NCBI GenBank assembly: GCA_029938135.1 | Contig: JAPYOO010000008.1 | Coordinates: 1 to 45,480 of the forward strand | DNA: 45,480 nt | Direction of reading: 5' to 3' | Source: Bermanella sp. | Lineage (GTDB): Bacteria > Pseudomonadota > Gammaproteobacteria > Pseudomonadales > Oceanobacteraceae | In this document: one piece after another, positions 40,887-42,945 of the stretch | Position numbering within the stretch: position 1 is the stretch's first letter | Layout of the letters: every line of letters starts with the position of its first letter | Translations under genes and position numbers: made by a program | The notes under the pieces: generated by a model | The model's database searches: none | Told to the model about the DNA's origin: nothing | What the model saw: the letters and a program-made list of their open reading frames with translations, nothing else

Positions 40887-41474
40887 TTATGCTGCTAAAG
40901 TTTCCTCAACAAAGTCTAAACGGTCTTGCCCAAAGAACATATCTTTACCCAAATACATAGTAGGCACACCGTAGCCACCGCGTTTAACCAATTCGCCGGT
41001 GGTGTCTTTAAGTTGATCTTTTATGGAATCGCTGTTTACAAGCGCTTGGAATTCTTCTGCGTTTATATTTAATTTTTTTACCACGCTTGCCAAGGCCTCA
41101 GGCTTAGAAAAATCCACTTTTCCAACCCACATCCCATCAAACACCATTTTTAAATACTCCATTTCCATAGATAACTCTTTGGCAGCATAATAACCTCGCA
41201 TAAGTGGCAAAGTGTTAAGCGGAAAATATGGATTAAAATTCATTTCAACTTGATAACGTTTGGCAAAGCGCGGTAAATCAATCGCCATATAACGGCCCTT
41301 TGGTGCCAATAATATAGGCGAGGTATTGCCTGTGCTTTTAAATACACCACCCAACAATACGCCCTTGTATTCTATATCCGCATTATATTTCTCTTGCAAC
41401 TGTTGCAATCGGTTAAACGCTAAAAATGCGGTGGGACTTGCAAAATCAAAATAAAACTCAATTTTTTTACTCAT
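40887..41474 (-). CDS. DsbA-family 2-hydroxychromene-2-carboxylate isomerase (NahD-like)
   Basis: 195 aa, thioredoxin-fold protein of the kappa-GST/NahD class. Features: FYFDFASPTAFLA with the family Ser, PLNTLPLMRGYYAA, KVDFSKPEAL, and RGGYGVPTMYLG with the cis-Pro loop, ending FFGQDRLDFVEE. NahD is a glutathione-dependent isomerase of naphthalene degradation, but no aromatic pathway adjoins, so the substrate is unknown. It lies 63 bases downstream of the SDR gene in the same direction, forming a likely operon controlled by HxlR. AAAGG upstream supports the start. Confidence 0.88.
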   Translation of the reverse strand: MSKKIEFYFDFASPTAFLAFNRLQQLQEKYNADIEYKGVLLGGVFKSTGNTSPILLAPKGRYMAIDLPRFAKRYQVEMNFNPYFPLNTLPLMRGYYAAKELSMEMEYLKMVFDGMWVGKVDFSKPEALASVVKKLNINAEEFQALVNSDSIKDQLKDTTGELVKRGGYGVPTMYLGKDMFFGQDRLDFVEETLAA

Positions 41475-41537: not shown

Positions 41538-42293
41538 TTACCATTTTTCGCTCCATGGACGAACATCCAACTCAAACGTCCAGGCATTACGAGGCTGATT
41601 GTGAAGCATCACATAGTTGGCGGCTAAATCGTCGGGGTTAACAATACCGTCTGGACCTGCAGCTTTCACTTGAGATGGGAAATTAGAATGAATAAAGTCG
41701 GTATCCACCATGGCATCTATTACCACGTGTGCCACATGAATATTTTTAGGGCCTAACTCACGCGCCATGCTTTGCGCTAAAGCCTTAAGTCCCTGCTTGG
41801 CACTGCTAAACGCCGCAAAAATAGACCCGCCACGGACACTGGCGGTAGCGCCTGTAAAAATAATGGTGCCCCGCTGTCGCTTAACCATATATTGAGCCGC
41901 CTCACGACCCGTTAAAAAACCAGCAAAACACGCCATTTCCCAAATTTTATAAAACTTTTTACTGCTCGTTGCCAAAATACTCATGGGGACATTGGCCCCG
42001 ATATTAAAGACCACGACCTCTAACGCCCCCACACTGGCTTCAATTTCTTTAAACAGGGTCTGTACCTCTTCTTCTTTACGAGCATCACAGGCAAAACCGT
42101 GGGCAATCCCCCCTTGAGCGTGTATTTGTTCAACCAAGGGGGCCAGCTTTTCACCGTCACGACGCACCAGGCACACCGTATGGCCTTGCTGCGCAAACTT
42201 ACGGGCAATAGCGCTGCCGATCGCGTCTCCAGCCCCCATAACCAATACTGCCCCTTTGCTTGGGCCGGCTATTTTCTCGTCTATATTAGTCAT
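41538..42293 (-). CDS. atypical SDR-family protein
   Basis: 251 aa. The Rossmann start GAGDAIGSAIARKF and nucleotide region are intact, as is NIGANVP. The catalytic positions are unusual: the segment TGATASVRGGSIFAAFSSAK aligns so that Ser becomes Ala and Tyr becomes Phe (FSSAK), with Lys kept. This fits a recurrent atypical SDR group and casts doubt on classic oxidoreductase activity. The C-terminal part reads ARELGPKNIHVAHVVIDAMV. The start is ATG 42293 with GGAAG upstream; the ORF track begins 11 codons earlier. It is divergent from an HxlR regulator with tandem operators and followed by the DsbA-like isomerase. Confidence 0.82.
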   Translation of the reverse strand: MTNIDEKIAGPSKGAVLVMGAGDAIGSAIARKFAQQGHTVCLVRRDGEKLAPLVEQIHAQGGIAHGFACDARKEEEVQTLFKEIEASVGALEVVVFNIGANVPMSILATSSKKFYKIWEMACFAGFLTGREAAQYMVKRQRGTIIFTGATASVRGGSIFAAFSSAKQGLKALAQSMARELGPKNIHVAHVVIDAMVDTDFIHSNFPSQVKAAGPDGIVNPDDLAANYVMLHNQPRNAWTFELDVRPWSEKW

Positions 42294-42318: not shown

Positions 42319-42360
42319 AGTTCCAAATTGGAACTCGATAGTAGGTTCCATTTTAGAACT
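42319..42360. promoter_or_regulatory. tandem palindromic operators between SDR and HxlR genes
   Basis: Site 1, AGTTCCAA-A-TTGGAACT (42319-42335), is perfect with 8-base arms. Site 2, GGTTCCATTTTAGAACT (42344-42360), is a weaker copy, 25 bases centre to centre. Both contain the GTTC/GAAC core. This is the expected place for HxlR control of both directions. Confidence 0.7.
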
Positions 42361-42374
42361 TGTAAAGCTATAAT
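42346..42374 (+). promoter_or_regulatory. hxlR-type gene promoter
   Basis: TATAAT, an exact -10, lies at 42369-42374. The position 17 bases upstream, TTCCAT (42346-42351), is a weak -35 and falls inside operator site 2, so the regulator could repress its own gene. A run of nine C (42378-42386) sits between the -10 and the ribosome site. Confidence 0.5.
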
Positions 42375-42402
42375 TTACCCCCCCCCACTTAAGGCTCGAT
42401 TA

Positions 42403-42945
42403 ATGCGCTGGAATGAAATAGAGAGCGATGTATGCTCAGTTGCGCGCACCCTATCTGTGGTGGGCGATCGCTGGACGTTATTGATATTGCGAGATTGTTT
42501 TTTGGGAAGTCGCCGTTTTGACGAATTCCAAAAGAACATCGGTTTAAGCCGACACCGCTTAACCGACCGTTTAAATAAGTTAGTAGAACATGAATTACTA
42601 TTAAAAAAGCCTTACCAAGACAACCCTCCTAGAAGCGAATATGTATTAACCGCAAAAGGAAAAGACATACACCCTGTACTAGTGACATTAACAGGTTGGG
42701 GCAATAAATGGATGCAGGATGGGGATGGTGTGCCTTTGCTGTATCACCATAAAAAATGTGAACACATCACCCAACCACAACTAAGTTGTGATCACTGTGG
42801 CGACAGCATTGATGCGAGTAACATGTATGTGACGCCAGGTCCTGGGATTTTAAAAAAGCTACAACGAGGCGTGAGTCCAAGCTACGTGCCCAAACGCTTG
42901 CTAAAGCTATTTAAAGACACACTAAACCTAGACGCACAAAAATAA
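42403..42945 (+). CDS. HxlR-family transcriptional regulator
   Basis: 180 aa from ATG 42403, preceded by AAGG at 8-base spacing; the ORF track uses an upstream start that crosses the operators. The winged HTH is typical of HxlR: RTLSVVGDRWTLLILRDCFL, then FDEFQKNIGLSRHRLTDRLN and YVLTAKGKDI. The C-terminal part carries cysteines (CEHITQ, LSCDHCGDS) that may bind zinc or sense redox, fitting HxlR members that respond to electrophiles. It likely controls the divergent SDR/isomerase operon. It converges on the ABC exporter gene. Confidence 0.9.
   Translation: MRWNEIESDVCSVARTLSVVGDRWTLLILRDCFLGSRRFDEFQKNIGLSRHRLTDRLNKLVEHELLLKKPYQDNPPRSEYVLTAKGKDIHPVLVTLTGWGNKWMQDGDGVPLLYHHKKCEHITQPQLSCDHCGDSIDASNMYVTPGPGILKKLQRGVSPSYVPKRLLKLFKDTLNLDAQK

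Follow-up and report, generated by a model that had tools for sequence, protein, structure and literature searches.

Tandem dyads between an hxlR-family gene and a divergent SDR-isomerase operon in Bermanella sp. are predicted operators of a probable HxlR repressor and coincide with two predicted overlapping promoters

In Bermanella sp., the DNA between a gene for an HxlR-family regulator and a divergent operon for a short-chain dehydrogenase-like protein (SDR) and an isomerase-like protein carries two dyads that are predicted to act as operators. Throughout, the window is the whole stretch of 45,480 nucleotides that was analysed. From sequence comparisons we hold with good confidence that the MarR/DUF24 (HxlR) repressor encoded at 42403-42945 uses both dyads, that it represses its own gene as well as the divergent SDR-isomerase operon via two overlapping promoters and that it is probably released via Cys11. 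A palindrome that was picked out by eye becomes a regulatory switch with good support, serving an SDR/isomerase-like gene pair that is conserved but uncharacterised. The earlier note on this DNA had described a perfect 17-base palindrome, a weaker copy 25 bases away, an exact TATAAT beside the second site and divergent flanking genes; each of these is present as described (Table 1), with the TATAAT 8 bp past site 2.

Table 1 Genes, predicted operators and predicted promoter elements of the hxlR-SDR locus.
Feature	Positions	Strand	Sequence or length	Remarks
hxlR-family regulator	42403-42945	+	180 aa	Pfam PF01638, E 2.7e-23
Short-chain dehydrogenase-like protein (SDR)	41538-42293	-	251 aa	Nearest solved structure 3h7a
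DsbA-fold, 2-hydroxychromene-2-carboxylate isomerase/GST-kappa-like protein	40887-41474	-	195 aa	PF01323; 2imd E 2e-23
Operator site 1 (predicted)	42319-42335	.	AGTTCCAAATTGGAACT	Perfect 17-bp dyad; kept in orthologues
Operator site 2 (predicted)	42344-42360	.	GGTTCCATTTTAGAACT	Weaker copy, 9/10 core bases
SDR promoter -35 (predicted)	42361-42366	-	TTTACA	5/6; perfect TTGACA in most orthologues
SDR promoter -10 (predicted)	42338-42343	-	TACTAT	17 bp from -35
hxlR promoter -10 (predicted)	42369-42374	+	TATAAT	TATAAT/TATACT in orthologues
hxlR -35 slot (putative)	42346-42351	+	TTCCAT	Poor match; 17 bp upstream of TATAAT

The regulator contains an HxlR-type winged helix-turn-helix (PF01638, 82.1 bits against a cut-off of 20.8) and its fold is fixed, at the level of sequence, by matches in Pfam and the PDB. 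Alignment locates Cys11, a recognition helix with Ser49-Arg50-His51, and Cys119, Cys129 and Cys132. In the SDR the classical YxxxK motif reads FxxxK (FAAFSSAK), as it does with Phe in 3h7a (FAAFASAK), and this SDR subfamily appears to lack the catalytic Tyr. The isomerase-like gene is the second gene of the SDR operon, an order that is conserved.

Both dyads lie within 109 bp of intergenic DNA, bounded by the SDR start codon (ATG at 42293, minus strand) and that of hxlR (ATG at 42403). Site 1 has 8-bp arms around one central base and is 25 bp from site 2, centre to centre. Since the window holds three odd palindromes with 8-bp arms, a single one as such is unremarkable. Inside the intergenic region, however, one is rare, arising in 27 of 10,000 dinucleotide shuffles of this DNA. 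A palindrome accompanied at 18-35 bp by a second, similar site was obtained in none of 10,000 dinucleotide shuffles, which excludes a chance origin of the pair.

Promoters were assigned by consensus and conservation. Here the earlier note was incomplete, having missed the leftward promoter (-35 at 42366-42361, -10 at 42343-42338), whose TTTACA-17-TACTAT was also flagged by a separate scan. Site 2 is the exact 17-bp spacer of this promoter, and the SDR transcript is predicted to start near 42331, within site 1, and the hxlR transcript near 42381. The -35 slot of hxlR lies inside site 2, so that the leftward and rightward promoters overlap almost fully. MerR-like activation from within the spacer was considered and rejected, as MerR-type promoters have spacers of 19-20 bp and the leftward spacer has 17 bp. 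As a separate observation, a run of nine C (42378-42386) lies where the hxlR transcript is predicted to start, in its 5' leader; it is not conserved in the congener (L012/L103) and could invite slippage or length variation.

The same layout is found in relatives. In 28 orthologous loci from seven families (f1, f16, f20, f24, f29, f37 and f44) hxlR is divergent from the SDR gene, with HxlR orthologues of 46-100% identity, and the isomerase-like gene follows the SDR in nearly all. Two matching sites 24-28 bp apart occur in 19 of the 28 loci and, at a distance of 37 bp, in one more. The twin arrangement is not universal, as four SDR clusters of f29 have just one site, a strong one that lies farther upstream, and site 2 is degraded in the f37 clusters; two other loci have one strong site each. 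Clear sites are absent near several close HxlR homologues without the SDR. The place of the hxlR-proximal site relative to the leftward promoter is fixed: a TTGACA-like hexamer (at least 5/6, minus strand) abuts it in all 21 loci that have one and is found at no offset other than 0 (tested from -6 to +12), and a -10-like hexamer is flush with its opposite side in 20 of these. The 17-bp predicted operator and the spacer of a leftward sigma-70-type promoter are therefore exactly the same stretch. This arrangement is ordinary in kind and conserved across many bacteria.

The placement of the sites across both promoters predicts repression of both. An HxlR dimer on site 2 would fill the leftward promoter's 17-bp spacer as well as covering the -35 region of the hxlR promoter, while a second dimer, on site 1, would cover the predicted leftward start. 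Together the two dimers would repress both overlapping promoters, resulting in autorepression and control of the divergent operon. The earlier note had predicted this outcome, and it is supported by the conserved architecture, by sites that follow regulator and cluster across families and, as set out below, by the twin sites of a paralogue and the covariation of residues 50-51. That HxlR represses rather than activates is what we infer. It could instead be an activator, with HxlR on site 1, at about -54 relative to the start predicted for hxlR, recruiting polymerase to its own promoter and site 2 merely blocking the SDR promoter, so that the locus would switch between overlapping promoters. 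The poor -35 of hxlR (TTCCAT) would fit such a role, as would the founding member of the family, B. subtilis HxlR, which is a formaldehyde-activated activator operating via a Cys11-Lys13 bridge (PMC7835342) and is also an activator in the title of Yurimoto 2005. We nevertheless regard activation as unlikely: part of the hxlR promoter itself, its -35 region, is overlapped by site 2, and the leftward promoter is near-consensus with optimal 17-bp spacing, so an activator is not needed there. Moreover, Lys13, which is required for formaldehyde activation, is replaced by Val in the window HxlR (C11-S12-V13), so that the Cys-Lys bridge cannot form.

A repressor of this kind is likely to sense electrophiles or oxidants, judging from its cysteines. 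Cys11 is invariant (63/63 close homologues) and aligns with the sensing Cys of B. subtilis HxlR and YodB, and its modification by an electrophile or oxidant would probably free HxlR from the DNA or weaken its binding. An equivalent of YodB Cys101 is absent, the aligned slot near residue 106 reading MQDGD (query 15-110 aligned to YodB 9-105). Cys32 (codon 42496-42498) is found in 27 of the 28 SDR-linked HxlR proteins versus 4 of 35 others; it is a possible second redox Cys of the SDR-linked subgroup, or may reflect shared ancestry alone. There is also a conserved C-terminal cluster, C119...C129-x2-C132, that might bind zinc or serve as extra thiols.

Evidence that the regulator recognizes the dyads comes from covariation between its recognition helix and the half-site. 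At the N-terminal end of the recognition helix in the proteins of the retrieved loci (numbering of the window HxlR), Arg/Lys50-His51 pairs with GTTCC in the palindrome upstream of the gene, Arg/Lys50-Asn51 with GTTGC and also GTTTC, Thr/Ser50-Asn51 with CTTGC, Lys51 with GTTTC and Arg50-Thr51 with GTCCA. Residues 50-51 predict the half-site in 29 of 31 representatives (<70% identity, clear unique best motif, motif classes chosen on the same data; 0/20,000 permutations). Held-out loci from other orders and classes agree in 14 of 15 cases (54/20,000 permutations); 12 of these 15 have Lys51 and many of them come from one family, which makes the effective number smaller than 15, and the sole Asn51 case disagreed (GTTCA). 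HxlR (PMC7835342) and YodB (PMC8063818) both bind DNA through helix alpha4, which makes direct residue-base contact plausible. On the strength of this covariation, binding of both window sites by the window HxlR is very likely. Beyond this locus, we think it probable, with some reserve, that a joint statement holds: HxlR proteins would follow a simple code in which residue 51 specifies base -4 of the half-site (C for His, T for Lys, G for Asn), residue 50 specifies base -7 (G for Arg/Lys, C for Thr/Ser) and Thr51 shifts the site to GTCCA, the operator would be predictable from the protein, and the twin operator would be maintained because of no other position than that of exact spacer in a divergent consensus promoter. 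Neither an operator serving as spacer nor residue-base covariation was found for HxlR in the literature searched, outside which most subscription papers lay. The covariation rule is testable and relates DNA sites to two residues of the regulator in a family that is very large and for the most part unstudied; under it, the protein sequence of an HxlR regulator could serve to predict its operators and regulon. In addition, proteins with a Ser-Arg-Thr recognition helix (L092, L094, L070 and L019) were seen with AGTCCA..TGGACT dyads, not GTTCC, which are in tandem 31 bp apart in two cases.

The 4.73-Mb draft genome has three copies of the perfect core GTTCC-N5-GGAAC, one in site 1 and two as a tandem pair on contig C380, all just upstream of hxlR-family genes. 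The members of the pair are 28 bp apart (L001 4788-4830) and lie between an hxlR paralogue, whose product is 44% identical to the window HxlR, and a divergent gene that reads by eye as a PaaI-like thioesterase. TTGACA-17-TATATT surrounds the site in the same frame as in the window. The recognition helices are near-identical (TRHVLTDRLKKL in the paralogue against SRHRLTDRLNKL in the window HxlR), and cross-talk between the two regulators is therefore likely. Genome-wide, core matches with a single mismatch number 34 per orientation, fewer than the 151 of the reversed-pattern control, and give no credible extra targets. We also observed single ORFs of about 310-390 aa with two HxlR domains in tandem (L005/L007, contig C526 8445-9302), with further examples in other genomes (e.g., L023, L024 and L031), which are possibly single-chain 'dimers'.

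The binding of HxlR to the dyads is itself a prediction, which leaves room for another transcription factor using them beside an incidental hxlR gene, but we consider this very improbable, as the sites follow hxlR genes with differing divergent partners (the SDR, and the PaaI-like thioesterase on C380) and half-site bases -4 and -7 track HxlR residues 51 and 50. Least credible is that these perfect or near-perfect inverted repeats are RNA hairpins or terminators, a function rejected because no terminator was found and no T-run follows the dyads, or mere chance, against which stand the shuffles (0/10,000), and both are opposed by half-sites that are conserved around variable centres in a fixed place relative to promoter elements.

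Among known systems, GntR-family divergons likewise have two operators between divergent genes and have been subject to TF/site covariation analysis (PMC4494728), in a TF family unrelated to HxlR; such an analysis for HxlR was not found in the literature searched. The nearest solved structures to the window HxlR by sequence are PA1607 of Pseudomonas aeruginosa (2f2e) and 4gcv, which differ in having KN/PN instead of RH in the recognition helix. To our knowledge, neither has a known regulon. B. subtilis HxlR belongs to the same Pfam family and has Cys11 in the same place, whereas its bridge partner Lys13 contrasts with Val13 here. It likewise binds two sites, at hxlAB. The MarR/DUF24 quinone-sensing repressors YodB and QsrR share the HxlR-fold winged helix-turn-helix dimer and the N-terminal reactive Cys, and their repression of detoxification genes is a further likeness. 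Their dyad also has 4-bp arms 7 bp apart, TACT-7-AGTA for YodB (PMC8063818) against GTTC-7-GAAC, present twice, in the window, so that the half-site is GTTC(C) instead of TACT. In contrast to YodB, the window HxlR has no Cys near the Cys101 position, and it is longer than YodB and QsrR, with its C-terminal Cys cluster. Overall, the locus is an ordinary HxlR/DUF24 divergon with an unusually regular build.
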